Source: Asterias amurensis (taxonomy: Eukaryota > Echinodermata > Asteroidea > Forcipulatida > Asteriidae). Taken from it: DNA of 64,000 nt. A program made the position numbers and the translations under genes. A model generated the notes under the pieces. It worked only from the letters and a program-made list of their open reading frames with translations. It had not been told where the DNA came from and ran no database searches. Location: contig NC_092653.1 in the NCBI RefSeq assembly GCF_032118995.1, forward strand, positions 22,897,202-22,961,201, in the 5' to 3' direction. Below, piece by piece: positions 8,701 through 64,000 of this stretch; positions within the stretch are counted from its first letter, which is position 1, and each line of letters begins with the position of its first letter.

Positions 8701-10184
8701 AAAAAATCCAGCGGTTAAACGACCCTGCCTTGTACTTGTGGGACTCGTTTTACTTACGTTATTTTATGTTATAGCAAACGTTTTTTATCGCTTAAAGTAC
8801 CCAATCCAATGAAATTATGTCCCTTTTATAAGCTTTAATTTCAATAAACGTTTCCTGAAATCAGTAAAACTCCTGAGAAATCACATTCCTGTATTTTAGG
8901 AAATACCCATGTCGAGTTGACAACTTACCAACCAGCCTTCACCATTGTCCATATCACAGTAGACTTCTTTACTGTCTCCATTACTCCAAAGTATAGCGGT
9001 GTATACTCCACTACTAGTACTTCCAGAATCATACCAGGCCTGACAGTCTGCATGTTGATAACAAATTAAAGAAGCACGTTTGTGTTTTTGCTAGAATTCC
9101 GTTGACTTTAACGGTGTCTTAAACTACTTGGTCAATGACTGTGTTTGTGGTTTTTGTCTACCTGACAGTCAAATTCAGTGTCGCCTGAAATAGCTAGCCC
9201 CCTATTGTGGATTATCCCCTACCTTATTAACCTTCGATCACGAGTCGAAGCGTACAATAGTCAATGTACGGGGGTAGATTTGCATGGCTGATGCTGATAA
9301 CAACCGCGATCTCAGTTTGAATAAGGTCTTACCGTTTCCTTGATTTCACATCAAAATTCAGCAAGCACCTCACATTTAAAAGAAAAACAATACAAACGAG
9401 ACGATGTCGTGTACTCGTCCGAACCAGCGAATTCGGCTAAGCTACGAGATCAGCACGTCCGCCAGTGCCGAAGAATACTAGGCAGACGCGCGCGATCCAG
9501 CCGAGCTCTAGCCGAAGTCATGTTTGTATGCACAACAGAGTTAAGTAAAGAACCAACTCGACCATATATTTAAAAATTTAAAACGTTACCCGTGGTCTTT
9601 ATTGCAGTCGCTAGAGTACTTTCCTCATAAAGGCACCCGAAATAGTTGCGAACCACCTCGACGTCATGAGTGAACAGCGGCTGATCGGTGTAGTTGGGTC
9701 TATACGGTCTCTCGGATGTCATTGTGTTTACTCCCCCTGGTAATAGAACGGTACAGGAGCAGCGTTCTTTATGGGTAGTGCCCGGCATCACCCATCGAAA
9801 TTTGCCTTCATGGTCTGGCTCTTGCTCAAAATAACATTTCTTTGCTGTGACTGGAAACAGGTACAAACATTGAACTGAATAAAAGAATGTTATAGGTCAA
9901 TTGTAAACAAAGTGTAGGCTCGCATAATGGTTAGAAAATAACTTTTGCAGCAACGAACACTACCATTTCACTCAAGTGGCACGAATAAATAGCCTTTCTG
10001 AGCGAAAAAGCAGTCGGACGCGTTTAATTTAACTTTTAAATTCAATTCCAATTATGGAAAATAAAACTTTTTTGCAGAAACAGCAACACCAAACAACAAA
10101 CATAATAATATTTCATGTCTATGAGATGCTTCTCTTACCTGCTTGAAAAAGGACCAAGAACACGACGGAACAGAGGATATCCAT
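5746..10184 (-). CDS. Gene B: secreted FBG protein with nested F5/8C (discoidin) domain
   Basis: Seven exons fit with consistent phases: 10184-10139, 9850-9590, 9047-8929, 8274-8010, 7756-7395, 6396-6258 and 5999-5746, giving 481 residues and a TAA stop. In order they encode a signal peptide ([15 protein letters not shown]); a four-cysteine module (residues about 16-102); FBG first half (about 103-230; DCQAWYDSG, then [12 protein letters not shown] and NEALRLL); F5/8C domain (about 231-397; [36 protein letters not shown]); then FBG second half (about 398-481; HFSTYDN, GWWFNDC, SNLNG, EMKMRRN). The FBG second half reads NLTG where gene C has NCAG, so WWFNDC lacks its usual disulfide partner. 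The product is expected to be secreted and to bind glycans or cell surfaces, as FBG and discoidin proteins do; that role is inferred. Confidence 0.88.
6676..6925. mobile_element. TTAA-flanked palindromic MITE in gene B intron 5
   Basis: The element lies between TTAA at 6672-6675 and TTAA at 6926-6929. Its arms pair over most of their length: the text around GAAGATAATGATAGT returns reversed as ACTATCATTATCTTC, and TGAGGTGCTGTA returns as TACAGCACCTCA around a short AT loop. The right end (ACCCTGTAAGTTTATGG onward) resembles the right end of the element at 3334-3698, so both belong to one family. Confidence 0.7.
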
Positions 10185-12739
10185 GGCGGTCTCACATCGA
10201 ATGGCAACTGATGGGTTTGTCACAGAGACAGGCAATGACTGTCTCGTAAATTACCCTATGTTAATTTTACTCGCTACTCATACCATTTTGGTTGGTTTGA
10301 CGGCCAATCAATACCACTCTGATTGAACGTTGATGAGAAAAAAAGGAAGCAACTGAAGTGGAACACTTCACGCGTCTATCTGGTAGTTTCTTTAAATCTC
10401 AATACCTGCAATACCGATGGCCAGCTTGAAAAATATGTATTTTTGCTCTACATGTTAGTATAGCTTTATCGGTTTCATATGGAATGGAGTACGAAATTGG
10501 TGACAATCATTAAGCGGCCTCGCTCCATAACCACCGATCTATACCACTTATCTCACACTCTTCTCCACGCTCCAAAAAGGAAACGTTTCATGTCAAACGA
10601 TCTTCCTATAATATTATGGCTTTAAAATACATCGAAGATATACATTTACGTATAAATATTCACTATTTTGAGGAATAAATCGTGAAACCTTTACGTAAAA
10701 TGTATATGTTTCATGACCATTCAAAGCCACCATACTATTTATATAAACATCCACTTTCTCAAATTAATAAAATTTTCAAGAAGAGACTCAAACAGAATTG
10801 TTCTTTAGCAATTTTTATTTAATTTGCTCGATGTGTGGTGTCGTAGTAGTTGAAAAAAAGATCGGTAGTGATTAATAACAACGAGTATATGTATTATATA
10901 TATCAAGTCATAAAAAACAACAATACAAAAACGTAAAAGGCTAATAAGGCCATACTTTCTTAATGTTTCTTCCTTACATTACAAGAAAGTTTTGAACAAA
11001 AACAAAAAGAATGGTTTGAGTTGCCAACGTAGTGAAAGAGCTTTCCATCCCACCCCAATCGAAATGATTCCAATAACAACCCAAGTACTGCGCTGTGTAA
11101 AACTGCTTTTGCAATCTAACTACCTATGCTCACTGCCCTCGAGTGTTGATCAGCCTTTATTAAGGCCCGCATAGCCTGCAAATTGTTGATCACTAAAAAA
11201 CGGAAGTTGGGAATCTGCATAACATCTCCTCAATGTCAATATAGAGCCCGGACGCAAATTCATTAAGCTAAAGCACAATGTTTACTTCTCTCTGCTAACC
11301 ACAGCAGGGAACCAGACTAATTATTAGATAATAATAATAACAATAATCGTTATCTGTTTCTGCTAAGCAACAAATTGTGGTGCCAAGTAATTTGTAAATG
11401 TACGATAATTCGGTCTTGCTGTGCTTCATTGCTTGTATGCTGAGATGAGGTGCAGCTACTAAAAAGCTGTGCAGGCGACCCTGGGGAACAACTCCCGTAA
11501 AATTGCAAGACAGTAAAATTGCTGAGTGTCTCCCATTATCAAACCCTACGTCAGTCAATCGTGCACGTTTCGCCACATAACCAATATCACATAAATTTGA
11601 AATTAAAACTAACATGAGATTGGATTATATTATTATAAAAACAAAAGGGTGCTTCTATTATTTTACGCAAATGTTGGTGAATATTTTTAACAATTAGAAG
11701 AATAATAATATTTAGACGAAGATTTAATAGACTACACTTTGAATGGCATTGCTAAATACCAAATTTGTAGTATTTGGCATCACTAAGATACGAATACCAA
11801 TATTTCAAACGTAGCTATTGTAACGTGTAAGATATTAATGGAAATCACTCGACTCTGTTAACAATTTTCTTGCTTCAGGTGATGTCTAAACTATCTAATT
11901 AATCCCCTAAACTATCTAATCCACTCTAATACAGTAAATATTTCACTTACAGTTTTAACTGGGTCAGCTACGTTTGGTAACTATTTCATAACTTTCGTAT
12001 AGTAAGAGGTTCAACAGCTTTAGGTAGTGTAATGTATTGCAAAATGTCACATTTTCTCCCCAAAACTTTGAATATAAGAAGCATTACCGCATTTACGTTT
12101 CTCGGATTGTGTTTTCCTATAGGATTAGTCTCCCTGCGTTGACATAATTATTCGCTCCGGAGTTTTGGCGACATCTCCAAAACGCGACCACTGTTAGTTT
12201 TATTGTAAATAACTACATTTATCTAGGATTCAAAGTTGCACGGTTCCTGAAACCATAGGTTAATGTGCGACTTAGAATTGATTGGTGCATCCATTAAAAT
12301 ATAATTAAAAGGCTACTATATATAATATACTCTTCACAAAAACTTTAAACAATTAATTTAAAGATCCTATAGGCCTATATGTATTGTTATAAGTTGAACT
12401 CCTCTTCAAAGAGTTAAGACTAGTCTTATCTCTTTGGACGAGTTACTCGTCCTAACTTAGAACTAGCCGTGCGTTTTTAATATCTCCTTATAAGGACTAG
12501 AACTAGCCGTATACGTTTTTAATATCTCCTAGGACTAGTCTTAAGTAAAGAATAGTCCTATCTCTTTGTGAAATCGACCCCAGTTCACATAGAGTATGTA
12601 ATCTCTGAGTTAAATATCATACCTTCTCTCACTTAAGTCCATTTGTGTTTTTGCTTGTCTGGGCATGTCTACCACAAGCTTTGGTCCTTCTGGTTATGCC
12701 CCCATTTCCAATTCTCCTCAATACTGTTCTTTGTTATTT
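10185..12739. other. Intergenic region between gene B and gene C
   Basis: This stretch holds the gene B upstream region and the gene C downstream region. I see no TATA box before gene B; an inverted CCAAT word (ATTGG) lies about 125 bp upstream of its ATG. At 12131-12195 a segment around ATTCGCTCCGGAGTTTTGGC resembles block X near 3785-3835 and its copy near 19845-19890, a dispersed repeat or trace of older duplication. The rest is AT-rich with no exon recognised. Confidence 0.5.
12401..12581. mobile_element. Short palindromic element
   Basis: Left and right parts mirror each other: AAAGAGTTAAGACTAGTCTT at the left, and GGACTAGTCTTAAG with ATCTCTTTGTGAAATCGACC at the right. The centre contains GGACGAGTTACTCGTCC, itself a palindrome, and a direct repeat of AGAACTAGCCGT followed by GTTTTTAATATCTCC. 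I take it for a MITE of uncertain superfamily; no clear target duplication was found. Confidence 0.5.
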
Positions 12740-12745
12740 TTTATT
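12740..12745 (-). terminator. Probable polyadenylation signal of gene C
   Basis: AATAAA on the minus strand lies about 80 nt after the gene C stop codon, a plausible short 3' untranslated region. Confidence 0.45.
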
Positions 12746-12823
12746 TCTATTATCTGTTGAAATGGAAAGGATGTCTTGAAATGGAATTGAAACTGAAATA
12801 ATGAAAGAAAGAGTACAAGAAGG

Positions 12824-15800
12824 TTAACCTTCACGACGCATCTTCATTTCACTCTTCACAATCTGTCTTCCTTCCCAAGTACTCCATCGCATACCGCGAT
12901 ACTCATTAATCGAATAATTGACGTAATACGAATAGTCGCCATTCAGGTTGCTTTCCACAACCTTCTCATGGTAACCACTGTATAAAGGGACACCAGAACA
13001 ACGGTCAAACCACCAACCTCCCTCCAGCAGACCAGCACAGTTTTCAGCATCACCATCGTTGTCGTGGTCGTAGGTTGAGAATGGCCGGTTGTTGATCAAA
13101 TCAAGAACATCACCTTGAGAAAAGTAAAATTTGATTATGTAAATATTTAAAGTAAGGTGCTTAAAGGCACTGGACACGTTTGAAAGACCTATTCTCCCTT
13201 GTGTGTCCAAATATGCAAACAAAAGTTGGCCATCAGAGTTGCAAGAAAATAACGAAAACCACCCATGGAAAGAAAAAAATCATATGTCCTTCTGGAAATA
13301 ACTTGATGTGGACTGAAGCTAAACCCCTGAGGAACACTTGTAAAAGGTGCGACTATCAAATTATGTGCAATGCACAGGCTTAGTCCCTACCTTTGCAACC
13401 AATGAGCTCGATGCGCATGGATGGCCATTCTTGGTATGCAGTTGGTAAAACGCGAACATAGCGAGCACGTATGGGCTCCCGAAATATGCTTGTAACTGCT
13501 TCCACATCATCATCATTTCCTTGAAACACCTGTGAGATAATAATAGCCAAAATACCAACTTAAAATTTAGATTTACTCTTTAGCAAATAATTTTTACAAT
13601 ATTTTTTCGTTGAAGCAGCTTTTGAGAAGATTTTTCCATTCAATACAATTATCACTGTACATGCATTGTGTCAGCCTGGAATATTATTTTGTGTGGTAAA
13701 TGCATTTTACAATGGTTCTGCGCCGAGTTGTTTAACCATACATAACCCGTCGGTTTCAGTGTATGGAATAGGTTGTCAACTTTCTGACAAATTGTATGAG
13801 GAATCTTTATTCGGGCATTTTCCAGTGAGATTTGTAAGAAAATAAAATAAAAATAAAGGTCCTCTAGAAAACTACCTCTGCTGTTTGCAAAGATGATCCG
13901 CCGACGTAACGCCATGCTTGCGTGTCGTTGCTGTACCCCACTTTGTATTTTGTCACCCAGTCATGGAAACGTTCCCAAGGATCCGTGCTCCCTTGTATCA
14001 TTACACCTTCGACTTGCTTTGTTGTCTCCAAATCCACTTGGAACCAGGGTGTCCCGAGGTCGTTATCTGCCGGACACCAGCCACCTACAACCCCTTCGCT
14101 ACTTCCAGGATGGTTTAGTCGTCCATTACTCGCAATACAACTATCCTGGGGCCGGGTCTCTTCAGTATGGAAACTCGACGCTCTAATGTTGGAGTCTGGG
14201 ATGCTACCGTCTTCCATCCCGAGACGTTGGCCGCAAATCCCATGATCTGAAAAGTACACACGCGTTATAATTATATTACTTCATGTATCCAAATTTGAGT
14301 CATTTCTGTTTGGTATACCCCTGTGATAGATTGCAAATGTTATTGGTCAACTACCGATTACGTTATAAGAGATGTCAAGTTTGCATCGGGAATAAAGATT
14401 TGTTTTTCTTCACCCATACACCGATTTGTTTTAGCATTGTGTACTCAGTACTTACCCGAGTCCTGTGACCTCCAAGAAACAATACATGCCTGTGATACTT
14501 ATTCACGGGACTCGGGTAAAATTCAAACCGATACGGCCCTACGTGTTCTACAAATTCACACGTGCATTGCTCAGGGAGCATGAGGGGAGTACCCCCCTAT
14601 GGGAAACATTACTTTCCTCGTGCCCACAGTTGGTCGCTTCCGAATTCTTGATATAAAGGTACTTACATAACCCTGGCATAGAGAAAGGGTATGAGGTAGG
14701 AAGTATTAGGTATAGGAAGTATGAGATAGAGAAGTCTAAGGTAGAAAATAATTATGTGGGAATTTGGGTTGTGCTGCATTTTGGACCGAAAATGGCGTCC
14801 AGCAACCGACCACAGAAATCTAGTCCCCTCCCCCAGGTGTGCCGAAACTTTTCAAAACAAATATTTTGATTATCATTTCTTGTTTCTCGGTCTTTCCTTT
14901 AAATTGCTGATTGCTGTTATGTAGGCCCACTCACCAATTTGACCAAGCTCAGAGCTTCCCACTTGCAAGGTGTACTCGTCACCAACTATGCGGAATGACG
15001 ATTTCGTCAAAGATCCCTCAACGCCCGTTTCATCTGTGAGATCCACACGGATAGTCCAGTTAGACTCAGCTAGACCAGTCAGAAGACGCACTGCTTCATT
15101 GCCAAGCCAGAACTCCCCCTGAAGGTTCCCAAAGCCTCTCTTATACTCGTTCCAGTTCCGCGTGAAATTCACAGATCCATTCAGACGTCTCTGAAATACC
15201 TTTACAGCACAATTAAATTTCACTTTGGATTAGAAGCATCATGGGTCATCATGCAGTTTCCTGTGTTTTATGTTGTAAAGGCATGTAAACCTTTGTTTTT
15301 TGACCGTTCGATCGTTTTAATCTTGATGTAGACAACAATTAATCTGAGATATCATACGAGGCAGCTTTACAGGCAACAAGTTCCAGACATCTCAAAGAAT
15401 CCATTCTCATATAAAATTGCACACATTATTCTTCGGATCATTAATGCATCTGTATGAAAAACACTCTTGTGATACCAACTAGGTCCTGCAGCGTGCACTG
15501 CAGTTGGTTGCCCCAAGTTGCCTTCATGACAACCTTTATGGCAGTAAGTAACTCAGTTTAACAATTGATTTTTTGTTCCATAACCACATTACTTCGAAGT
15601 GAATGATCTCTAACTGCTTTATACTCACGGCTGCTGTATGAGTGATTGCAAACGTATTATAATGTGTACTTTTCCTTAAATTTAGCGTCTGCTGAAGTCG
15701 AAACTTAATAATGTCTCTCTGTTCGGTAATCACTTACCAGCCAGCCTGTTGTATCAATCATTTCACAGTTGACGTCCAAAAGCTCTTGGCTGTTTGGGAG

Positions 15801-40009: not shown

Positions 40010-43000
40010 GGTCACAGAAGGACTGAGAATATGCCCTCTGAATAGAAGGTTTAAGAGTTTGCCCTATGAACACAGAGGGAAAGAGAGTGTGTCCTCTAAA
40101 CACACAAAGGACTAAGAGTGTGCCCTCTTATCACAGAAGGACTGAGAGTATGCCCTCAGAACGCAGAAGGAGTAAGAGTGTGCCCTCTGAACACAGAAGG
40201 ACTAATAATGTGCCCTCTGAACACAGAAGGACTAATAATGTGCCCTCTGAACACAGAAGGACTAAGAATGTGCCCTCTTATCACAGAAGTACTGAGAGTA
40301 TGCCCTCTGAACGCAGGAGTAAGATCGGCTCTCTGATCACAGGACTTTGAGTTTTCCCTCTGAACACAGAAGGACTAAGAGTGTGCCCTCTGAGCACAGA
40401 AGGACTAACAGTGTGCCCTCTGAACACAGAAGGACTAAGAATGTGCCCTCTGAACACAGAAGGACTAAGAGTGTGCCCTCTGAACGCAGGAGTAAGATCG
40501 GCTCTCTGATCACAGGACTTTGAGTTTTCCCTCTGAACACAGAAGGACTAAGAGTGTGCCCTCTGAGCACAGAAGGACTAAGAGTGTGCCCTCTGAGCAC
40601 AGAAGGAGTAAGATCGGCTCTCTGATCACAGGTGCCCTCCGATTACAGAAGGAATAAGTTGGTGCCCTCTGATCATAGGACTGGGAGTGTGCCCTCTGAA
40701 CACAATTGGATTAAGATTGTGCTCTCTGAACACAGAAGGAATAAGATCGTGCCCTTTGAACCCAGAAGGACATAGAATTAGCCATCTGAACAGTCGACTT
40801 ATATTGTCCCCTACTGATTGGAGGACTAACCGTGTACCCTCTGATCACAGAAGGACAAAGAGTTAGCCCTCTCGACACAGACGGACTAAGAGTGTTCCCG
40901 CTGGATACAGAAGGACCAGGAGTGTGCCCTCTGAAACAGGACAAACCATGTGCCCTCTGATCACAGAATGACAAAAAGTTAGCCCTCTGGACACAGATGG
41001 ACCAAGAGTGTTCCCGCTGGACACAGATGGACCAAGAGTGTGCCCTCTGATACAGAAGGACTGAGAGTTGCCCCTCTGATCCCCTGACACAGAAGGACTG
41101 AGAATGTGCCCCTCTGATCTCAGAAGGACTGCCCTCTGGCCACAGAAGGACTTAGACTATACCCTCTAAACCAGAAGGACTAAAATTGTGCCCTCGAACA
41201 CAGAATGACATCGCGTTAGCCCTCTGGACACAGACAGACTGAGATCTGACCACAGAATGACTGAGAGGTGCCCTCTGAACACAGAATAGACAAGAGTGAG
41301 CCCTCTGCACAGAAGGGAATGAAATTATGCCCTTTAAACACAGAAGGACTGCCCTCTGATCACAGGAGGACTACAATTTTACCCTATGAACACAGAAGGA
41401 CTAAGATTGTGCCCTCTAAACACTAAAGGACAAAGAGTTAGCCCACTACTGAACACAAAAGGATTAAGAGTAAGCCCTCTACTGAACACAGAAGGACTAC
41501 AATTGTGCACTCCTTACATGGAATGACTGAGAGTGTGCCCTCTCAATACAGAAGGGCCAAGAAAAGGCCCTCTGCGCGAAGGACTAAGAGTTGGCCCTCT
41601 GAACGCAGAAGGACTAAGATTGTGCCCTCTGAACACAGAAGGGCCAAGAGTTGGCCCTCTGCACTAAGGACTAGGATTGTGCCAACTGCACAGAAGTAAT
41701 ATTGCCCTCTGAACACCGAAGGACTGAGAGTAAGCCCTCTAATTACAGAAGGACTAAGAGTATGCCCTCTGAACACATAGTGAACGAAAGTGTGCTCTCT
41801 GAACACAGAAGGTCCCAGATGGAGCCCTCTGAAAACAGAAGGACTAAGATTGTGTCCTCTAAACACAGAAAGACTAAGAGTAAGCCCTCTGAACACAGAA
41901 GGTCCCACATGGAGCCCTCTGAAAACAGAAGGACTAAGATTGTGACTGAGAGTGTGCCAATTAAACACAGAAACGCCACAAGACAGCCCTCTGAACACAG
42001 AAGGACTAAGAGTTAGCCCTCTGAACACAGACGGCCAAAGATTGTTCCCTCTGAAGAATGAATAGGATTGTGCCCTCTTACGACAAATGGACTGAGAGTG
42101 TGCCCTTTAAACACAGAAAGGCCGCGAGACAGCCCTCTGAACACAGAAGTACTGAGAATTAGCCCTCTGGACACAGACAGCCTAAGATTGTTCCCTCTGA
42201 ACACAGAAGGAATAAGATTGTGCCCTCTCACCACAGCAGCATTAAGATTGTGCGCTCTGATTACAGTGTGCCATCTAAACACAGAGTGAATGAAAGTAAG
42301 CCCTGTGAACACAAAAGGTCCCAGATGGAGCCCTCTGAAAACAGGACTAAGATTGTGCCCTTTGAACACAGAGGAACTTAGATTGTGCCCTCTTATGACA
42401 AAAGGACTGAGAGTATGCCCTTTAAACACAGAAATGCCATGGGAGAGCCCTCTAGACACAGAAGGACTAAGAGATAGACCTCCGATTACTGAAGGAACAC
42501 AGAGTGAATGAAAGTGTGCCCTCTGAACACAGAAGGTCCCAGATGAAGCCCTTTGAAAACAGAAGGACTAAGATTGTGCCCTCTGAACACAGGAGGACTA
42601 AGATTGTGCCCTCTTACGACAAAAGGACTTAGAGTGTGCCCTTTAAACACCAAAAGGCAACGAGACAGCCCTCTGAACACAGGACTAAGAATTAGCCCTC
42701 TGAACACAGAAGGACTAAGATTGTGCCCTCTAAACACAGAAGGACTAAAAGTGTGCCCTCTGGACACAGACCGCCTAAGATTGCTCCCTCTGAGCACAGA
42801 AGGAATAAGATTGTGCACACTGATTACAGAAGGAATAAGATTACGCCATCTGAAAACAGAAGGACTAAGATTGTGCCCTCTGACAGAAGGACTGAGAGTA
42901 AGCCCTCTGAAAACAGAAGGACTGAGATTGTGCCCTCTGAAAACAGAAGGACTTAAATTGTGCCCTCTTATGACAGAAGGACTAAGAATGTGCCATCAGC

Positions 43001-46000
43001 ACAGAACTGAAATAATGCCCTCTGAATACAGAAGGACTGAGAGTATGCCATCTAAACACAGAAATGCCACAAGACAGCCCTCTGAACACAGAAGGACTAA
43101 GAGTTAGCCCTCTGAACACAGAGTGAATGAAAGTGTGCCCTCTGAACACAGAAGGTCCCAGATGGAGCCCTCTAAAAACAGAAGGACTGAGAGTGTGCCC
43201 TCTGAACACAGAAAGACCACAAGACAGCCCTCTGAACACATAAGGACTAAGCGTTAGCCCTCTGGACAAAGACGGCCTAAGATTGTTCCCTCAGAACACA
43301 GGTCTCACATGGAGCCCTCTGAAAACAGAAGGACTGAGATTGAGCCCACTGAAAACAGAAGGACTAAGAGTAAGCCCTCTGATTACAGAAGGACTAAGAG
43401 ACTGCCTCTGAACACTGAAGGAATGAGTTAGCCCTCTGTACACAGAAGGACTAAGAGAGTAAACAGAGTAAATGAAAGTGTGCCCTATGAACACAGAAGG
43501 TCCCAGATGGAGCCTTCAAAACCAGAAGAACTTTTTGAACACAAAAATACCACAAGACAGTCCTCCGAACACAGCAGGACTAAGATTGTGCCATCTTATG
43601 ACAAAAGGACTGAGAGTGTGCCCTTTAAACACAGAAAGGCCACAGGACAGCCCTCTGAACACAGAAGGACTAAGAGATAGACCTCCGATTACTGAAGGAA
43701 CACAGAGTGACTTAAAGTGTGCCCTATGAACACAGACGGTCCCAGATGGAGCCCTCTGAAAGCAGACGGACTAAGATAGTGCCCTCTGAAAGCAGAAGGA
43801 CTATATAAGAAGGAGCCCTCTGAACACAGAAGGACTAAGGTTGTGCCCTCTGAACACAGAAGGACTAAGAATGTGCCCTCTGAACACAGAAGGACTAAGA
43901 TAGTGCCCTTTGAACACAGAAGGACTAAGATTGTGCCCTCTTATGACAAAAGGACTGAGAGTGTGCCCTTTAAACAGAAAGGTCACGAGACAGCCCTCTG
44001 AACACAGGACTAAAAGATAGACCTCTGATTACTGAAGGACAAAGAGTGTGCCCTCTGAACACAGAGTGAATAAAAGTGTGCCCTGTGAACACACAAGGTC
44101 CCAAATGGAGCCCTCTGAAAACAGAAGGACTACGATTGTGCCCTCTGAACACAAGAGGACTAAGATTGTGCCCTCTTACGACAAAAGGACTGAGAGTGTG
44201 CCCTTTAAACACAGAAAGGCAACGAGACAGCCCTCTGAACACAGAAGGACTAAGAGTTAGCCCTCTGATTACAGGACTAAGAGTGTGCCCTCTTATGACA
44301 AAAGGACTGAGCGTTAGCCCTCTGAGCACAGGACTAAGATTCTGCCACCTGCACGGAAAGACTGAAATAATGTCCTCTGAACACAGGAGTACTGAGAATG
44401 TGCCCTTTGAACACAGAAAGGCCACAAGACAGCCCTCACACAGAAGGACTAAGATTGTGCCCTTTGAACACAGAAGGACTACGCCTTAGCCCTCTGGACA
44501 CAGAAGGCTTAAGATTGTTCCCTCTGAACACAGAAGGAACAAGATTGTGCCCTCTGACCACAGAAGGACTACAAGTGTGCCCTCTGAACACAGAAGGTCC
44601 CAAATGGAGCATCTGAAAACAGAAGGACTAAGATTGTGCCCTCTGAACACAGAAGGACAACACTGTGCCCTCTGATCAGGGTAGACTAAGATAGTCCCAT
44701 GTTATCACATGACTAACCATGTCTGCTGTAATCACAGGACTGACGGTCTGCTCTGATAATCACAGGTGGACTAAGAGTCTGCCCTCAGATCACAAAAGGA
44801 CTATTAGTCGCACTTGTAACAAAAAATTACTAAGAGTGTGCTTTTTGCACACAGAAGGTCCCAGACGGAGCCCTCTGAAAGCAGGAGGACTAAGATTTTG
44901 CCCTCTTATGACAAAATGACTGAGCGTTAGCCCTCTGAACACAGAAGGACTAAGATTGTGCCCTCCGAGTACAGGAGGACTAAGAGTGTGCCCTCTGGAC
45001 ATAGACGGCCTAAGATTGTTCCCTCTGAACACAAAAGGAACAAGATGGCGCCCTCTGACCACAGCATGACTGAGAGTGTGCCCTCTAAACACATAAAGGG
45101 CACGAGACTGCCCTCACACAGAAGGAACAAGATTGTGCCCTCTGAAGACAAAAAGACTTAGCAGAAGCCTGCTGATTACAGAAGGACCAAGGATGCCCTC
45201 TGAACACGGAGTGAATGAGAGTGTGCCCTCTGAACACAGACGGTCCTAAATGTAGCCCTCTGAACACAGAAGTACTTAGATTGTGCCCTCTGAACACAGA
45301 AGTACTTAGATTGTGCCCTGTGAACACATAGGACTACACTGTTCCCTCTGATCAGGGAAGACTAAGATTGCCCCCTCTTATCACAGGACTAACCATGTCT
45401 GTTGTGATCACAGAAGGACTGAGAGCCTGCCCTCTGAACACAGAAGGACTAAGATTTTGCCACTAGCACAGAACTGAAATAATGCCCTCTGTATACAGAA
45501 GAACTGAGAGTGTGCCCCTCTAAACACAGAAAGACCATGCGACAGCCCTCTGAACAAAAAAGGACTAAGTGTAAGCCCTCTGATTACAGAAGGACTAAGA
45601 GTGTGCCCTCTGAACACAGAGTGAACGAGAGTGTGCCCTCTGAACACAGGACTAACAGTAAGCCCTCTAATTACAGAATGACTAAGAGTTTGCCCTCTGA
45701 ACACAGAGTGAATGAAAGTGTGCCCTGTGAACACAGAAGGTCCAAGATGGAGCCCTCAAGGAACAGAAGGAATAAGAATGTGCCCTCTGAACACAGAAGA
45801 ACTAAGAGAGTGCTCTCTGAACACAGAGTGAACAAGATTGTGCCCTGTGAACACAGAAGGTCCCAGAAGGGGATCTCTGAAAACAGAAGGACTAAAATTG
45901 TGCCCTATGAACACAGGAGGAATAAGATTGTGCCCCCTGATAACAGAAGGATCAAGAATGTACCCTGTGATTACAGAAGTTCCAATAGTTTGCCCTCTGA

Positions 46001-46055
46001 TCACAGAAGGAATGAGATTGTGCTCTCTGAACCCAGAAAGACTAAGAGTATGAAG
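40010..46055. repeat. 6 kb minisatellite of a degenerate 30 bp unit (about 200 copies)
   Basis: The unit reads TGCCCTCTGAACACAG, then AAGGACTAAGAGTG. Copies differ by base changes and by small losses such as a missing GAAG. Because 30 is divisible by 3 the array gives long open frames on both strands with ten-residue periods (CPLNTEGLRV and PSEHRRTKSV on plus; TLSPSVFRGH on minus). No start context, splice pattern or end supports a protein. Variant units form larger patterns: a run with ACAAAAGGACTGAGAG, CCCTTTAAACACAGAAA and GACAGCCCTCTGAAC recurs near 42.1, 42.4, 42.6, 43.6, 43.95 and 44.2 kb. Confidence 0.93.
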
Positions 46056-46682: not shown

Positions 46683-47205
46683 CATTCCCTCCACCAATTG
46701 TACATTCCCTCCACCAACTGTATCCTCCCACCACCAACTGTATCCTCCCACCACCAACTGTATCCTCCCACCACCAATTGTATCCTCCCACCACCAATTG
46801 TATCCTCCCGCCACCAATTGTATCCTCCCACCACCAATTGTATCCTCCCACCACCAATTGTATCCTCCCGCCACCAATTGTATCCTCCCGCCACCAATTG
46901 TATCCTCCCGCCACCAATTGTATCCTCCCACCACCAATTGTATCCTCCCACCACCAATTGTATCCTCCCACCACCAATTGTATCCTCCCGCCACCAATTG
47001 TATCCTCCCACCACCAATTGTATCCTCCCACCACCAATTGTATCCTCCCGCCACCAATTGTATCCTCCCACCACCAACTGTATCCTCCCACCACCAATTG
47101 TATCCTCCCACCACCAATTGTATCCTCCCACCACCAATTGTATCCACCCACCACCAATTGTATCCTACCACCACCAATTGTATCCTACCACCACCAATTG
47201 TATGT
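46683..47205. repeat. Highly regular 20 bp minisatellite (about 26 copies)
   Basis: The unit is TTGTATCCTCCCACCACCAA. Spacing is exactly 20 bp through at least 23 consecutive copies and nearly all variation is at two positions (CCCACC or CCCGCC; CAATTG or CAACTG). The minus strand is G-rich, with four G runs per unit (GGTGGTGGGAGG). The open frames it produces in all registers are by-products of a stop-free unit. Confidence 0.95.
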
Positions 47206-50400: not shown

Positions 50401-53364
50401 TCCTTTTGATATCAGTTTTACTTTAAAGTGTCAAAAGTCATCATTGTTTTTGTAGTTATTTCAAACCATTACTTTTCTTATCCTTTGCCTTTGTAAAAAA
50501 AACCACTTGTTTCTATTGAAGCTACAAACTTGTTCACTGTTATCAACAGGGGAAGCATTTGGGTGGAATATTTTGAGCTTGCCAGGATACTTCACTAATG
50601 AGGTCAAGTTTAAACCATAGCCAATGAAAAAATATAGGTGTTGTGACACAGACCATCTCTTTGAGTGAATTGTAAAATTTGGCTGCAATCCAATCTTTAA
50701 CTCCAAGCTTTAACTCACCATGGTTGAGTCTCAGCACATCCTCTCCATGTCTCAGACCTCATCTCAAGTTGGATATCTTGGGAGACATTCGAAGGTGGAT
50801 CTCTGGGGAGCCATTCGGAGGTTGACATTTAGGCAGCCATCTGAAGATAGATATCATGAGGACGCATCCGAAGGTCAGCTGGGCAGCCATCCGAAGGTGG
50901 ATATCTGGCAGCCATATTGGGGCAGCCAACTGAAGGTGAAAATCTGGGTAGCCATCATCCAAAGGTGAATATCTGGTGGGCAGCCATCTGATGGTGGTTA
51001 TCTGGGCAGCCATCTGATGGTGGTTATCTGGGCAGCCATCCGAGGGTTGATATCTGGGCAGCCATCTTAAGGTCGATATCTGGGCAGCCATCTTAAGGTC
51101 GATATCTGGGCAGCCATCTGAAGGTCGATATCTGGGCAGCCATCTGAAGGTCGATATCTGGGCAGCCATCTGAAGGACGATATCTGGGCAGCCATCTGAA
51201 GGTCAATATCTGGGCAGCCATCTGAAGGTCAATAGGCCAGCCATCCAAAGGTGATTATCTGGTGCGCAGCCATCAACAGAAGGATAACTGGGCAGCCATC
51301 TGATGGTGGTTATCTGGGCAGCCATTCAAGGGTGGATATCTGGGCAGCCATCTGAAGGTCGATAGGGCAGCCATCCAAAGGTGATTTTCTGGTGGGCAGC
51401 CATCAACAGAAGGATAACTGGGCAGCCATTCAAGGGTGGATATCAGGGCAGCCATCAGAAGGTGGGTGTCTAGGTGGATATCAGGGCAGCCATCAGAAGG
51501 TGGGTGTCTAGGTGGATATCTGGGCAGCCATCCAAGAGTATCTGGGCAGCAATCCGACAGTGGATATATGGGCAGCCATTCGCAATGGGAAAAAGAAAGA
51601 ATGAAATTAATCAATTTAGTACTTGATAATTAACTATCCTGTCAGAAACCCATTACTTGTATGGAAACTATTGTTTTTGATGGTTTCACCACCAATTTCC
51701 ACGAAGCTATGTATATACATGTATCATTAACAAGAACACTGAATGTAGGGCAGGAGTTGATGAGGTAGTGAACTGCTTAGTGGGGGCCTCACTAAAGTCT
51801 GTCCAAAGGCTCCACACAAATCTTCCAAAAAGAAGATTTCCCAACTCGGCAAAAACAATCTTGTTTTTTAACACTTTTAGGATTTTTAGCTTATTGAAAG
51901 CCCAATGGGTATGTTTCCCTAGTATGGTTGTTCACAATTTTACTAAAGTTACTTCTCTAGACCTGCATTACTTTTCTAGACCTGTGAAAGTTTTGATCAA
52001 AGCTCTACAGGTTTACCATGTTTTGTAAGCTTTAACTCACGATTGACTCTCAGCACATTCACTCCATGTTTCAGACCTCGTCTCATAGTGGACATTTGCG
52101 CAGCCATCAGAAAGTGAATATCTGGCAGCCATCAGAAGGTGGATATCTGGGCAGCCATCCAAGGGTATCTGGGCAGCCATCAGATGGAGGATATGGGCAG
52201 CCATTCAGGCGTAGATATACGAGCAGAAAGAATGAAATTAATCAATTTAATACTTGATAAATCCTGTCAGCGAACCCATTTCTTGTATTGAAATAACTGT
52301 TTTGGACGGTTTCACCACCAGTTTGCATTTAAGGCTATGGATATGTATTACTTAATACAAGAAAACTGAATGTAGGGCAGGATTTGATGAGGTAGTGAAC
52401 TGCTTGTGGGAGCCTCACTAACATCCGTCCAAAGGCTCCATACAAATCTTCCAAGAGGAAGACAATTTTCACAACTTGTTTTTTAACAACTTTTTTGAGA
52501 AGTTACATTATAGCTTACTGAAAGCCCAATGGATATGATTCCCTAGTGTAGTTGTTCACATTTGTAACTTAAGTTACTTCACTAGACCTTTGTTACTTTT
52601 CTAGACCTGTGAGGGTTGAAGTTTTGATCAAAGATAGCTACAGGTTAACCAAGTTTTGTAAGCTTTAACTCACCATCATTGAGCCTCAGCTAATTCTCTC
52701 CATGTCTCAGACCTCATCTCAGTTGGCAACCATTGAAGGTGGATATCTGGCAGCAAAGAAAGGTGGAAATCTGGGCAGCCATCCGAAGGTGAATACCTGG
52801 GTGTATCTGGGCAGCCTTCAGATGGTGGGTATGTGGACATATGGGCAGCCATTCCAAGGTAGATATACGGGGAGAAAGAATTAAATTAACTAACATTATG
52901 CTTGATAAATAACTATCCTGTCAGCAAACCCATTGCTTGTATAGAAACTATTGTTTTTGATGATTTCACCATCAATTTCCATGAGGCAAGAAAACTAAAT
53001 GTTGGGCAGGAGTTGATGAGGTGGAGAACTACCAACGGAAGCCCTATGAGTATGTTTCCCTGGTGTGGTTGTTCACATTTTTTGGTTGTTCACATTTTTG
53101 TGGTGGATACCAGCGCTTTATAAGACTCCATTATTATATTATTAATGTTTTATATTATGTTGCTTTATTTTGGATGATATAAACCACCCACTCCATGGTG
53201 AACATCAGATCAAGAAAATGAACACATTTTAAAACAAGAGCACAAAAAAACAATTTTGCAAAATTAGATGCCAATTCTACGCATTTACCTTTTACTCAGT
53301 GCAGCTCCTTTGCTGTCAGCAGTCTTGGATATTTCTTTGTAGACTACAGCTCTTTCGGTAGATG
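47474..53364 (-). CDS. Putative minus-strand gene with duplicated short 3' exons
   Basis: Five exon candidates have good borders: 53364-53289, 50295-50149, 49225-49134, 48510-48425 and 47550-47474. Acceptors follow pyrimidine-rich runs (TTTGTTTGTTTTGCAG before 48510) and donors are GTGAGT or GTAAAT. The exons at 53.3, 49.2 and 48.5 kb each end in SSK or LSK plus AG (phase 2) and are open in that frame (for example TSRCLRPASDARASHSSK and TSRCPRPAIDKGFAFSSK). Joining either of the last two to the 47.5 kb exon gives a stop after two residues. The 50.2 kb exon resembles the 47.5 kb one and has its own stop (after IEIGYEG). The 49.2 and 48.5 kb exons cannot follow each other in frame, so they may be alternative exons. 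No upstream exons or known domain were identified. It could also be a noncoding transcript. Confidence 0.3.
48774..48793. repeat. Poly-A tract
   Basis: A run of more than twenty adenines follows AAAACGG; no retroposed gene is recognised to its left. Confidence 0.8.
49629..49999. mobile_element. Long palindromic MITE (about 370 bp)
   Basis: The left end AAGGAACACGTTGCATTGGA returns inverted as TCCAAGGCAACGTGTTCCTT at the right end. The centre is a near-perfect hairpin: ACACGGTCGGCCATTTATGG and AGTCAA, a four-base loop, then the exact complement. A target duplication is not clear; the right border is followed by TAA. It is a separate family from the AGGCAGTGG elements. Confidence 0.75.
50780..51590. 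repeat. 26 bp minisatellite (GGGCAGCCATC unit), about 30 copies
   Basis: The unit is GGGCAGCCATCTGAAGG followed by TCGATATCT. Adjacent copies near 51055-51230 are almost identical. Shorter runs of the same unit stand at 52080-52220, 52730-52870 and 54215-54285 in the other module copies. On the minus strand the array contains ATGGCTGCCC and gives spurious frames with a 26-residue period. Confidence 0.9.
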
Positions 53365-58155: not shown

Positions 58156-58462
58156 AACCACACCACCTTTTTACAAAAACAAAATACCGCCACGGTGATT
58201 TAAAGTGCGCCCTCTTCAACCTTGGCAGCCTGAAAAACTTTAATCAATGAGACACAAAATAAATAGTTTTCACTCTTCTAATACACCTTCTGCAAAGCAT
58301 TTTTTGCAACTTCATTAACAAACATTATATGAGAATACGTACCTTGTCAAAATAAGTGCTGGTGGAAACAGATTAGGGTCCTCATAAAGTGAGTTTTAAG
58401 CACTTTTCCATGGCGTCATTTCTGCACTTCTCGAGTTTTTCTTTCGGCCATGCTGGAAATTA

Positions 58463-58481
58463 TGACGTAGTGTCACATGAC
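58463..58481. promoter_or_regulatory. Likely MED21/CDIN1 promoter elements (CRE-like and E-box-like)
   Basis: TGACGTAG at 58463-58470 resembles a CRE/ATF half site, and GTCACATGAC at 58472-58481 is a palindromic bHLH-zipper type E-box. They lie about 285-300 bp before the MED21 ATG in a locally GC-richer patch. No TATA box is evident. The exact transcription start is not determined. Confidence 0.35.
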
Positions 58482-58763
58482 ACCGAGGGCGCTGTTCACT
58501 CGAATAAAACACAATATTTTAAGATATTGAGACTTGGTGAGGCATATGTAAACTGAAAATTAATACAATACGGAGTATGTTTTTTTTAGTTGACCTTTCG
58601 TGTTACAAAAACTCTTGATTTCGAAGAGCTTTCAAAAGTAGCTGGAGTGCTGGACGCCCCCAAAGGAAAACCAAGAAACCCAAACACACACGCCCACTTC
58701 CCCTAGTAATGCAAACAGCGCCACCAATCGTCAGTCCATGAAACTAGACATGAAAATGAAAAC

Positions 58764-60422
58764 ATGGCTGACAGAGTAACTCAATTACAAGACGCTGTCA
58801 ATCAGGTATTTCTTTGCTATTTTATAATACTTGGGAGAGATATTGTATTCATACACTAACATTAAATGGTTTCTTATATTGTGTTGACTTGTATTGCATT
58901 TCCCAGAGACCGTTTTCCCAAAACACCGGAGAAAATAAACGATAAAATTGTTGCCCAATTTTCGGACATTACTTTTTTGTATTTTTTTGTGTTTAATTTG
59001 TTGGCTGATGATTGACAACAACACTGCTGCCTGTAGTGTGGGGTGGTTCGATTGCAATCTAAATCAGTGCAAGTAATACAAAAAGCAAAGTTTGCAGGAT
59101 TGGAGGAAAGATTTATGTATCTTTCCACCACTTTCCTACTAAATTCTACCGAATGGTATGTCTCGTTTTGATTAATTTGAATTTGATTAATTATAAATAA
59201 TAAATTAATTTATTTCATGTATAACAAATCATTGAGGCCACACTCTAGTTCATACATGTAGCTGCCAAACTTCCTCGTTTGTAAATGGTATACAATTATT
59301 ACAGTCATGAAATAAGGAAAGTAGTTCTTCATAAAAAATCATAAAGCATTCTAAACCATATTTCTAATTTCCTGTTCTTACCATGTTTATAGCTTGCAGA
59401 ACACTTCTGTAACAGCATTGGTGTCCTTCAACAAAGCGCCACACCAGCCAAGTTTCCTGGCTTTGAGAAGCAAGGAGTAACACTTCAGCAGGAGCCTGGA
59501 CATGGTCCGCAAGAGGACTACACCCAGCTGTTTGCTCAACTCATTGCTAGGACGGCCAAAGATATTGATGTTCTAATTGACTCGCTGCCGAGTGAAGAAT
59601 CAACGGTTGAACTTCAGGTCAGAAAGAAATTTCAGAGTTTGATTTGGAATATTGACCATTTATTTCGACCCATATTTGATAAAGATGTAAGCTTTTAAAG
59701 GTGACAAGTGAAATATCAACTTTGTGCTGTATGTAGTTAACAACTTACCGGTAAAAACATCATGATTAGTTTACTTTTGATTCCTCTGCAGCAAATTTTG
59801 TTTAGATGTCAAGTACAAATACTGCAATGTTGTTTCCAATAACCCAAGCAACAGGGTTGCCTAAAATGACTTAATTCTTGAGGAAACAATAAGCTTGTTG
59901 TTAGTGTGCAATTGTGCTTGATCAGTTTTGTTTCAACTTGAAAGGTTCTGACATTGTTGATCAAGCATTATGAGATCATGTTAATTAGATAATGTATATG
60001 ATACATGATTTTTTAATGCTGCTTACAATAACTGGACAATAATTGTTGCTTTCTTAACGCCACTTATCTTACAAAATAAAGTGTTACAGTTACATTATGC
60101 AGGATTTGTGGTGTTTGCGTTAATTGATATTTTAAGCATCAAATGATTGAACTTTGTGCCTTAACCATTTATTTGACTTTGTGCTTTTCTTCAATTACAG
60201 CAAGCATCCTTGAAGCACCTTGAGGTTGAGAATCAGGAGGCAGCCCATAAGCTCGGTGAGGTAGTACAGAGAGGCGAGGCACTCCTTGTGAGGATACAGG
60301 AGGCACTTGGTGATATCGCTGAGGCTCAACTCAGAACACAGAGTGCAAAGACGGCTAAACAGACACAAGAAGCAACAGCCATTAAGCAGGAAGAAGAAAC
60401 GGTTGACACTGTACAAAGATGA
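58764..60422 (+). CDS. MED21: Mediator complex subunit 21
   Basis: Three exons: 58764-58805, 59393-59617 and 60201-60422, all joined in phase 0, giving 162 residues. Known role: MED21 is a small helical subunit of the Mediator middle module, pairs with MED7, and acts in the nucleus in RNA polymerase II transcription. The sequence matches the family from the start ([14 protein letters not shown]), through CNSIGVLQQ, and in the hallmark segment [18 protein letters not shown] followed by DSLPSEES. The third exon encodes a coiled-coil helix ([32 protein letters not shown]). The tail is Gln/Glu-rich and makes the protein longer than the roughly 144-residue human form. Exon borders are GT/AG. The stop TGA shares ATGA with the start of CDIN1, and exon 3 contains no ATG before that point. 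Confidence 0.96.
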
Positions 60423-61270
60423 AACGTAGCGAGTATAAAGAGATCATTCAGTGCTTTGAGACACAACAGTGTGATGGCACAACAGAATCTTTGGCAGAGG
60501 TCAATAAAGTGTTTCCGACAGTGTCCCACAACACACTAATCAGTATTTACTCTCAGTATGTCCAACTAAAGACCAAGAAGAACTATAGCGTCTACAGCTC
60601 CCCATACAAAGCGCAGAAGTATTATGCTCAGTACAAGCAGCGTAGCGCAGATTCCTCCAACACCCAAGGCATGATATTAGTGCAGTTTGCCAACGAGCTT
60701 GATCTGAGCCCTGCGCTTCTCGCACGTGTTATAGTGGAGAGATATCTCTTTCATCTTTCTGGCGGTGAGGCACCAGTCTCTAAGAACAGACTGACTAAAA
60801 TGCTACGTGATCCTTGTCTGATAATGGACCCAGCACTCTCTCTTGAGGTACAACAGTGTTCATTAGTGGATTCCAGTTATGGACCAGTAGTGGACAGTAT
60901 TAAGCATTCCATTGGAGAAGAACTGGAAGTCCACTTGAAAAAGACCCTCCAGGATCATCATCTGGCGTTTCTAGACGAAGACGATATGAGAAAGAAAGGT
61001 TATGACAAGACGCCGGATATTAAACTCCAAGTGCCAATAGCTGTTGGAGGAAGGATTGTAAATTGGATTGAAAGTAAAGCACTGTTTGGTGACGACCACA
61101 GTCATGAGAATTACATGAAAGACCAATTATGGAGCTATGTAAATCGTTTTGGCTCTGGTCTGGTCATTTATTGGTTTGGTTTTATTGAGGAGCTCGCAAC
61201 AAGTTCGGAGCAAGGCATTATCATAGCTAATGACTTCCCCAAAACATTCTCAATATTGACTCCAGCATAA
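60419..61270 (+). CDS. CDIN1: CDAN1-interacting nuclease 1, single uninterrupted frame
   Basis: A 283-residue frame matches human CDIN1 (C15orf41, about 281 residues) over its whole length: an N-terminal helical region ([17 protein letters not shown]), the block [42 protein letters not shown], then the nuclease core. Motifs of a PD-(D/E)xK nuclease are visible: KTPDI with Asp200, then WIESKA with Glu218 and Lys220, and [20 protein letters not shown] after it. Known role: in humans CDIN1 binds codanin-1 and is mutated in congenital dyserythropoietic anaemia type I. The start aligns with the human start, supporting the ATG at 60419. In vertebrates the gene has many introns; here there is none. 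It begins inside the MED21 stop codon, so it probably shares its transcript or uses MED21 exon 3 as leader. Confidence 0.96.
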
Positions 61271-61608
61271 TCTGAAACAGAACAACAAATTCTCATAAAC
61301 AATTCTTCAAAGCAATGTCCTGTTGCAAGTTTCAAACAAATTTGGTTTTTGATTGGACTGGATAAGTTAAGTTTATTTCTTGGCCAACATGTTAAACAAT
61401 GTAAGTTGTAGTCGATTGATGCAGACCTGGAACTTCGTTTGTCAGAGGGCAAGGGCCATTTTAATTTTGTAAAGGGCACTTCCATCAGAAAATCTTAGTC
61501 TGTGTGAAACTTTTGAAAGGGCATCAAGGACAAGACCAGGGCAACAGAGGTCGTGACCTCTGTGTAATTCCAGGCCTGTGATGATGGTTTAAGGTTTTAA
61601 TTACTTGT

Positions 61609-61614
61609 AATAAA
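61609..61614 (+). terminator. Polyadenylation signal for the MED21-CDIN1 unit
   Basis: AATAAA lies about 340 nt after the CDIN1 stop. No such signal can exist between the two genes because they overlap, so a message spanning both would end here. Confidence 0.6.
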
Positions 61615-64000
61615 GACATTACCACACACATATTTCTTTCACCATTATATGTGCATTTTTTATTTAATACCTTGGTTGGTTTAAGAGTCTTCATAAAGAC
61701 ACTTGAAATTTAACACTTGAAAAAATAGAATCAATTTTCTTAATTACGTCATGTTTTTTCACATGAGAAAGTTAGCGAAAAATAGTTGTTTATAATCCTT
61801 CACCTGTATTTGATATATAAATTTTACATTTCTGTCCCTTTTTTGAGTTAAAAAAACATGTTTGCTTTCCTTTTCTGAATCATGCTTTAAACAAAAAACG
61901 CTGCCAGCAAAAAAAAAGTGTGGCAAATTTACAAAAAAGCTTGTCTCTACACTGCGTGGTTGAATAACCAAATTTACACTTGTTTTGCTTTACTTTTCTA
62001 AGCATAAACTAAACTCTCTTATTAAAGCCTAAACTGTCATGTGTATTGGATGTACATTTCCTATAACTGGTCAAAGGTAAATTTTCTGCAGTGAGATAAA
62101 CTTGATGACACTGTACATTTTCTTTTGCAAATCCAAGACAATAAAATCCCTAGTTCATGCTGCTGTAAGGTCAACTGGTCAAAGGAAAAACGGATTTTTT
62201 TCGTAAAATATTTTCAAGTTTTCATTTTTAAATAAGAAAGATTTACTTGATATCTTTTGAATGTAAACACTTGGGATTTTAAGTAGGAACACAGTGGTAT
62301 ACATGTACATAAGCATTATTTCAGATTAATGCTTGATCAAATTTAAACATACATTGTTAATAACTACACACAAAACGAGATGAGCTTGAGAATTACTTTG
62401 TAGATATTAAACAGTGGACGTAACCTGTTGAGCATCAGTGCACAAATACATGGAAGGACTGTTCTGTTTCCTTAATAAAACAAATGTGTACAAAATTGCT
62501 TTACCCCCATTCTTATTATTCAGAAATGGATCTTTGGCTAGCGATTAATTTTAAAAACAAAACTAAATTTTGTCTTACATATGTTCAATTCTTCAGCACA
62601 CATTTTTGGGGGCAGCTACATGCCAATTAATTGGCCTACTCACTTGGCTGTGACAAAAATGAGCTTAGATGTTGATCATACATTTTTTGTACATTGAGGT
62701 TTGCGACCAACATACACTTCAGTGTTCACATTCATGTAGCCACATGTTCCATCGTGCGGTTCTTTTTTTGAAACCGTTAGGAATAAATACATTCGTAGAA
62801 ACACCTGCCTGAATAGAAAGCCCTGTGTTGCAGTCTCTGTTCTGTACACTAGGAAAATAGCACTGTGTGGTTGTATGTAAGTCCACACAATGTTTCAAGT
62901 CCTTATGTAGACTTCTTTTGTTCTCAGGTCCACACTTTGTAATGTAGTGTTACAACACAGTGTTCGAGTTCAGATAATGATCAGCAAATGTGTGTTGCAG
63001 GGAGAAATTACCCGGCAAAAAAATCCTACATGTGTTTCTACTCAAGCTAATAATTATTTGTTAAGTGTGTACAGTTATAAATAATTTAAATAAAAGCAGC
63101 TCTATTGTCCCTCTTCATTTCTTCACAGACCACAAAATTCACTTCTGTCTCAAAAATATCAGGTACACAGTTATCATTAGCACTTATGAATTATTGCAAC
63201 TTGTCAGGTTTTGTTACTTTTACATACAATATGACAGTTTTCTTCCAATAAAACACTTCAAGGACATAATAAAATTGCTTCCCCTTAATAAAGTAAATGT
63301 AATACTTCATATAGAAACTCAGAACAGACTGGACAACGGCCTTAAAACCGATATGATATAGAAACACCCTAGAAGTCATATTCCTTTAAACACTTTTGTT
63401 TTCAATAAATCTGTTGAAATTACTGAAAAATAAAACTTCCTTTTTTACAAAGAACAATTTTGGTCGGAGCACACTTCCAGCATTGGCTTATGCTTCATCA
63501 GCCATTCAGAAAACGTCATGCTTAGAGTAAACAGTAATGATGTGGCTACTGGAAAAAAATAGCCAGAGCCAGGTTATAACAAAATCTTCACGTTCCAACT
63601 AAGAATTCGAATTTCAAAGTAGTAGTTTCTTTACGCTAACCAGTTGGGAATCCATCCCAATTAAGAAATTTTGAGCACTTGATGAGATGATATTAATTAT
63701 TTCACAGTTCAATATAAATATAACATTATTTACATATGTACTTTCATGGTTGACCCGGACAATAGAGTAAAAAAAAACAATATTTTGGTCCAAAGCTTGG
63801 TATGTCCAACATTTTACATGAAGGTTAATATATAGGAGGCTATTAAAATAATTTATATACCACACACAGATTCTTGTCATTTGATTCATGGAATACATGT
63901 GTAGCATCATGTTCCATTTTTTGTATACATATTTTTTTGCCATGTTTACTGCCACGAGTCCTATATGGATAATTATTGTACAGCACCCATTAATCCACAC
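61615..64000. other. Right flank, nothing recognised
   Basis: AT-rich sequence without a recognisable exon, RNA gene or complete transposon. Several AATAAA words (for example near 62475) could serve as later polyadenylation signals. Short frames here lack homology that I can see. Confidence 0.45.

Follow-up and report, generated by a model that had tools for sequence, protein, structure and literature searches.

The MED21-CDIN1 Locus

The window analyzed here, a stretch of 64,000 nt from the genome of the starfish Asterias amurensis, carries on its plus strand two protein-coding genes that share four bases. The upstream gene, MED21, has three exons and a product of 162 aa, and the downstream gene, CDIN1, is one uninterrupted reading frame. 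Their parts are as follows (evidence in parentheses):

58764..58805, plus strand: MED21 exon 1, with its ATG in the context AAAACATGG (Pfam and sequence reading)
59393..59617, plus strand: MED21 exon 2 (Pfam and genome match)
60201..60422, plus strand: MED21 exon 3, with the stop TGA at 60420-60422 and no ATG before the overlap (Pfam and genome match)
60419..60422, plus strand: ATGA overlap of stop and start codons (sequence reading)
60419..61270, plus strand: CDIN1 coding sequence, 283 aa, intronless, of the TPD / PD-(D/E)XK family (Pfam and genome match)

The coding part of each MED21 exon is a multiple of three, the exons join in frame, and both introns are GT-AG. The product matches Pfam Med21 over profile positions 1-143 of 144 (E 2.2e-27), and its residues 1-139 align with PDB chains named Mediator subunit 21 (best E 5.8e-45). 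The best-matching of these chains are presumably human and mouse, although the search output does not name them. The final 23 residues are unmatched in the chain alignment, and the C-terminal tail bears EEETVD. Exon 2 and exon 3 were each found at one place in the genome, while the 14 codons of exon 1 gave no match of their own in the genome search.

CDIN1 comprises 283 codons plus a stop and matches Pfam TPD over positions 2-138 of 138 (E 5.5e-56). Both the TPD and ESK motifs are present, with the D of TPD at residue 200 and the E of ESK at 218. In human CDIN1, a protein of 281 aa (PMC13370696), the active-site D is residue 196 (PMC7261414), to which, unaligned, residue 200 presumably corresponds. 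A phmmer search for relatives of CDIN1 with solved structures returned none at E 0.001. For prokaryotic relatives, a contig scan gave 10 pattern matches, none of them confirmed, and the TPD profile found matches in one of 14 control genomes, that of Methanosarcina acetivorans.

The two genes meet at 60419-60422, where re-reading in both frames gives ..GTA CAA AGA TGA.. for MED21 and ..ACA AAG ATG AAA.. for CDIN1, the latter lying in the -1 frame relative to MED21 at an inter-ORF distance of -4 nt. The CDIN1 frame is closed by a TGA four codons upstream of its ATG, and 60419 is therefore the sole ATG able to start CDIN1, barring upstream splicing. The initial annotation had described this overlap as joining two intact, recognizable proteins, and the re-reading and the Pfam matches bear out both points. 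It had also called ATGA overlaps rare in animals, a statement that needs care, given that, according to one review, more than 2000 human genes have transcripts with a second ORF of at least 50 codons overlapping the main one (PMC5972666), although some of these second ORFs may not be conserved separate proteins. On the plus strand of the window, six of 331 ATGA sites close an open stretch of at least 74 codons, a chance estimate that is tempered because both frames here are conserved proteins. The overlap is real and unusual. We know of no other four-base stop/start overlap between two such unrelated, full-length, ancient animal proteins; the bicistronic arrangement itself is known, and what is new is the sharing of four bases by a Mediator subunit and a second protein, both full-length and ancient.

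Other Features of the Window

Exon-like frames at 7377-15229, apparently tandem copies of one gene type, occupy part of the minus strand:

7377-7808 and 13864-14280, minus strand: frames with an F5/8 type C domain (domain match)
7879-8355, 12824-13279 and 14873-15229, minus strand: frames with a fibrinogen C-terminal domain (domain match)

Repeat arrays also occur. A 6-kb array at 40013-46049 consists of approximately 205 copies of a 30-base unit (64% match) and has long open frames on both strands; the resulting ORFs, of up to 210 aa, are probably not genes. At 46686-47203 there is a nearly perfect 20-base satellite (26 copies, 96% match) that is open in all six frames, and at 50920-51532 a degenerate array of 21 copies of a 26-base repeat with 38-base units at its end. 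No Rfam family matched at gathering scores anywhere in the 64 kb.

Missing Introns and the Origin of CDIN1

We think that the main clue to the history of this locus is the lack of introns in CDIN1, a feature absent from the initial annotation. Two disease mutations in human C15ORF41 sit in exons 5 and 8 (PMC7261414), and the human gene therefore has at least eight exons; the comparison of an intronless starfish frame with an intron-bearing relative is made with this human gene alone. In the same genome, MED7 is likewise a single open frame, of 233 codons (C4:19422256-19422729).

The initial annotation had raised the case that another genomic copy of MED21 or CDIN1 is the expressed one. Searches of 491,506,623 bases in 23 contigs found no second copy of either gene, with the qualification that the search scores the best first-look candidates alone (here 1 to 4), so that a very diverged copy could escape; the protein, TPD-profile, and DNA searches each found CDIN1 at a single place. 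With no second copy found, this locus is probably the animal's source of CDIN1, which is the partner of codanin-1. The codanin-1 C-terminal domain itself gave one exon-sized match on another contig of the same genome, in accord with the reported co-occurrence of CDIN1 and codanin-1 across animals (PMC7092493).

A single intronless copy directly behind the stop codon of another gene fits the remnant expected of retroposition followed by loss of the parent. The alternatives are that introns were lost in place, or that the intronless state is older than the echinoderms. Physical marks of retroposition were not found. A 12-nt repeat, TGACACTGTACA, at 60404-60415 and 62106-62117 was considered as a target-site duplication and rejected as no better than background, since 439 of 4000 window stretches, and among those of similar GC 273 of 1918, also have a 12-nt repeat 0.8-2 kb downstream. 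Furthermore, no A-tract was seen before the repeat on reading the sequence. An old retroposition event would have lost both the target duplication and the A-tract.

Among 14 human bicistronic transcripts, the downstream ORF is intronless in 50%, whereas the figure for monocistronic coding sequences is <10%; the explanation proposed in that work is retroposition beside an active promoter, termed "gene symbiosis" (PMC13303939). In Asterias, two intact, conserved, and unrelated ORFs stand in order on one strand, and the arrangement fits this model, in which the intronless copy behind the host gene would use the host promoter.

One Transcription Unit or Two

Four features bear on how the two genes are transcribed:

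58251..59000, plus strand: likely MED21 promoter region, perhaps common to CDIN1 (CpG profile, controls, and inference)
58731..58736, plus strand: initiator-like TCAGTC with a possible start site at 58733 (consensus match, not evidence of function)
60503..60508, plus strand: AATAAA inside CDIN1, 80 nt past the MED21 stop, which could end a MED21-only mRNA
61609..61614, plus strand: AATAAA, the first past the CDIN1 stop and the likely end of the unit (sequence reading)

The reading that we prefer, tentatively and at somewhat less than an even chance, is that both genes belong to a single bicistronic transcription unit under the MED21 promoter, born by retroposition or intron loss, in which CDIN1 would be translated by reinitiation or by uORF bypass. 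Most simply, a spliced CDIN1 copy would have been retroposed into the 3′ end of MED21 and the old multi-exon gene then lost, wholesale intron loss being the alternative to these two steps; CDIN1 would next have adopted the host promoter. A separate CDIN1 transcript is a close rival and almost equally probable. It would mean two overlapping units, with CDIN1 transcription beginning in intron 2 or exon 3 of MED21 and with exon 3 serving as 5′ leader, while the MED21 mRNA would be cut at the AATAAA within CDIN1 or at a later site and the ATGA would be a by-product of compaction.

In non-vertebrate deuterostomes, among them one sea urchin, promoters are reported to be CpG-rich (PMC3333190). In 500-nt windows, the CpG observed/expected ratio is 0.79-0.82 over 58251-59000, 0.15-0.48 over 59001-60250, 0.44-0.60 across CDIN1, and 0.27-0.55 in the remainder of the window downstream; 400-nt windows around the CDIN1 ATG, reaching 1.2 kb upstream and 0.2 kb downstream of it, give 0.19-0.49. 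The lowest point between the MED21 promoter region and CDIN1, 0.15 at 59751-60250, is a place where a separate CDIN1 promoter could lie and thus counts against two units, although the signal is only modestly informative. ASF1 and MED7 of the same genome served as controls; MED10 and MED31 were dropped, the MED10 match not being a start exon and MED31 having no convincing start. For ASF1, the ratio is 0.68-1.5 before the start, 0.79 at the start, and 0.27-0.39 at 200-800 nt after it, followed by values of 0.7, 0.69, and 0.31. For MED7, it is 0.26-0.35 in windows reaching 600 nt upstream and 200 nt downstream of the ATG, and 1.1-1.19 approximately 1 kb upstream. The ATG itself therefore need not be CpG-rich. 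Both controls have a CpG-rich stretch within approximately 1.2 kb upstream, whereas CDIN1 has none of its own and the nearest is that of MED21. A ratio of 0.79 falls in the eighth decile of the 500-nt steps of the window, and 32 of the 254 steps, which are not known promoters, exceed 0.9; high CpG here therefore marks unmethylated DNA generally and not promoters alone. With two controls, the pattern favors a shared promoter only mildly.

Sequence signals fall on both sides. The initiator-like match at 58731 is the sole one in 58501-58800, and another, at 59922 in MED21 intron 2, speaks for separate units. Animal genes often have internal alternative promoters, which likewise counts for two units. 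TATAWA is absent from intron 2 and exon 3, which counts against them; many animal promoters lack TATA. A scan of 59600-60500 for bacterial-type promoters, a tool not meant for animals, found 2 where 2.3 were expected. Moreover, exon 3 has no ATG before that of CDIN1, so that a transcript starting within the exon would meet the CDIN1 ATG first. Selection against ATG in exon 3 was considered as a cause and rejected, since the amino acids force the absence (mean 0.0 in 4000 redraws).

The initial annotation had argued that no promoter or poly(A) signal could fit between the genes. For the poly(A) signal this is literally true, but it leaves out that the AATAAA at 60503-60508 could end a MED21-only mRNA; a promoter, for its part, could sit in MED21 intron 2. 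GUGUUU and GUGU occur in the stretch after this AATAAA, as separate units would have it, and an ATTAAA at 61019 also lies within CDIN1. These internal signals count against the shared unit, as do the modest CpG signal and a possible intron past CDIN1. Past the CDIN1 stop, donor-like sites at 61401 and 62077 match 8/9 consensus bases, compared with 7/9 for the real MED21 donors, and an intron in the 3′ UTR after CDIN1 is possible from these matches.

To return to the preferred reading, co-transcription of MED21 and CDIN1 is supported only indirectly, by the intronless state of CDIN1, by the position of the exon junctions of the gene model upstream of the MED21 stop, and by the fact that the nearest CpG-richer region is that of MED21. 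The last MED21 exon junction is 219 nt before the MED21 stop. Because CDIN1 is intronless and the junctions of the gene model are upstream, junction-dependent mRNA decay would not treat the MED21 stop of a spanning mRNA as premature; this would fail if the 3′ UTR intron after CDIN1 is present. By the same reasoning, such decay would be expected if the downstream gene still had introns, and intronlessness may be a prerequisite for second-cistron status as well as a trace of origin. The full term "nonsense-mediated," as distinct from its abbreviation, does not occur in the main text of PMC13303939.

Possible Routes to CDIN1 on a Putative Spanning mRNA

No donor with at least 7/9 consensus bases lies between 58600 and the exon 1 donor of MED21 (both real donors have 7), and by simple consensus counts there is no convincing donor that would let transcripts skip the MED21 start. 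The AG directly before the CDIN1 ATG was tried as a splice acceptor and rejected as weak, with 8/17 pyrimidines. Given these two results, transcripts from the MED21 promoter should carry the MED21 start. The same AG is the one point in favor of a spliced-leader operon, in which the pre-mRNA would be split by trans-splicing just before the CDIN1 ATG. This is highly improbable: the site is an AAG within a coding stretch, its 8/17 pyrimidines compare with 12 at each real acceptor, and we know of no spliced leader in echinoderms.

If the mRNA spans both frames, two further short ORFs become relevant:

58738..58779, plus strand: possible uORF, if within the mRNA, overlapping the MED21 start and ending in TAA at 58777-58779
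59502..59576, plus strand: 24-codon out-of-frame ORF inside MED21 exon 2 (sequence reading)

The uORF has three in-frame ATGs, at 58738, 58750, and 58756, and is out of frame with MED21; it possibly controls MED21 itself, irrespective of CDIN1. One route, which we consider doubtful, is leaky scanning or uORF bypass, whereby ribosomes would skip the MED21 start, some of them after translating from the 58738-58756 ATGs, pass the 24-codon ORF, and restart at CDIN1. The upstream out-of-frame ATGs that this would use exist, provided that the start site precedes them, and the sole two further ATGs within the MED21 coding sequence before the overlap fall in the exon 2 ORF, which ends 259 nt (on the mRNA) before the CDIN1 ATG, a workable restart distance. 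Against leaky scanning, the MED21 start codon is flanked by A at -3 and G at +4, a good context by the vertebrate rule, from which the sea star consensus may differ. Synonymous depletion of ATGs is also absent, 2 being seen where 1.46 were expected (4000 redraws). Simple leaky scanning is thus disfavored from the sequence, while ribosomes might be led to CDIN1 through a series of short ORFs, depending on a start site before the 58738-58756 ATGs. In green-algal bicistronic genes, the first ORF is the shorter, the second the longer, and the inter-ORF distance very short, as here; the algal genes also have the weak first-start context and AUG depletion of leaky scanning, neither of which MED21-CDIN1 has (PMC11892635).

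The other route is termination-reinitiation at the ATGA, which would yield both proteins in a fixed ratio and which we judge unlikely. The exact overlap of stop and start is the geometry of translational coupling and the overlap expected of TURBS. Five human transcripts are reported to undergo coupled reinitiation without a viral-type motif, one of them needing an aspartate-rich C-terminus (PMC5972666), which the EEETVD-bearing tail of MED21 weakly resembles. Yet reinitiation after long ORFs is, according to the same review, presumably very rare, and the downstream protein was approximately 82-fold lower in the only case quantified (PMC5972666). Furthermore, the last 150 nt of MED21 contain no UGGGA motif 1, and the fold of the last 101 nt before the overlap is no better than that of shuffles (z 0.44); neither the motif nor a structure presenting it is thus in place. 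The likeness to viral termination-reinitiation drawn in the initial annotation is accordingly weak, the calicivirus UGGGA and a stable fold being missing. Calicivirus and influenza B reinitiation sites have overlapping stop and start codons, as here (PMC5972666; PMC3035654), but MED21-CDIN1 is cellular and lacks both motif and structure. In a mouse embryonic GAD variant, the overlap is UGAUG, a putative UGGGA-type motif is present, and a single gene is involved, through one of its splice variants (PMC5972666), whereas MED21 and CDIN1 are two unrelated genes without such a motif.

On the preferred reading, a shared unit translated by either route, CDIN1 output would probably be lower than that of MED21. 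A stricter form, a true animal operon, would have every mRNA carry both frames, the ATGA couple their translation with CDIN1 made in fixed proportion, and the missing introns allow escape from decay. We regard this as distinctly unlikely.

Comparison With Known Bicistronic Genes

The closest parallels combine some of these features. In STREMI-SLC35A4, one of the 14 human bicistronic transcripts, a conserved upstream ORF is followed on the same strand by an unrelated intronless one, and retroposition next to an active promoter is presumed, as is proposed here (PMC13303939). The human case differs in that its upstream ORF is a 103-aa microprotein and a spanning mRNA has been shown (PMC13303939); MED21-CDIN1, known here from DNA alone, has a full Mediator subunit upstream and an overlap of 4 nt. 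RPP14-HTD2 is similar in placing a small subunit of a core machine before an unrelated enzyme on one mRNA, but HTD2 is described as part of the RPP14 3′ UTR and not as an overlap, and that link is reported to be conserved over 400 million years (PMC4705651; PMC5932603).

In the open-licence literature, we found no paper linking CDIN1 and MED21. Co-mentions of C15orf41 and MED21 there concern only chromosomally unstable cells and colorectal cancer, and no title reports a dicistronic gene in an echinoderm.

Few bicistronic genes of animals encode two proteins that are both full-length and anciently conserved. The locus is a natural test of second-cistron translation in an animal cell, as well as of the idea that intronless genes are favored as second cistrons, introns exposing the first stop to decay. 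A strict operon, if it proved ancient and was retained throughout the starfish, would link transcription, by way of Mediator, to histone-chaperone control, by way of the CDIN1-codanin-1-ASF1 branch.
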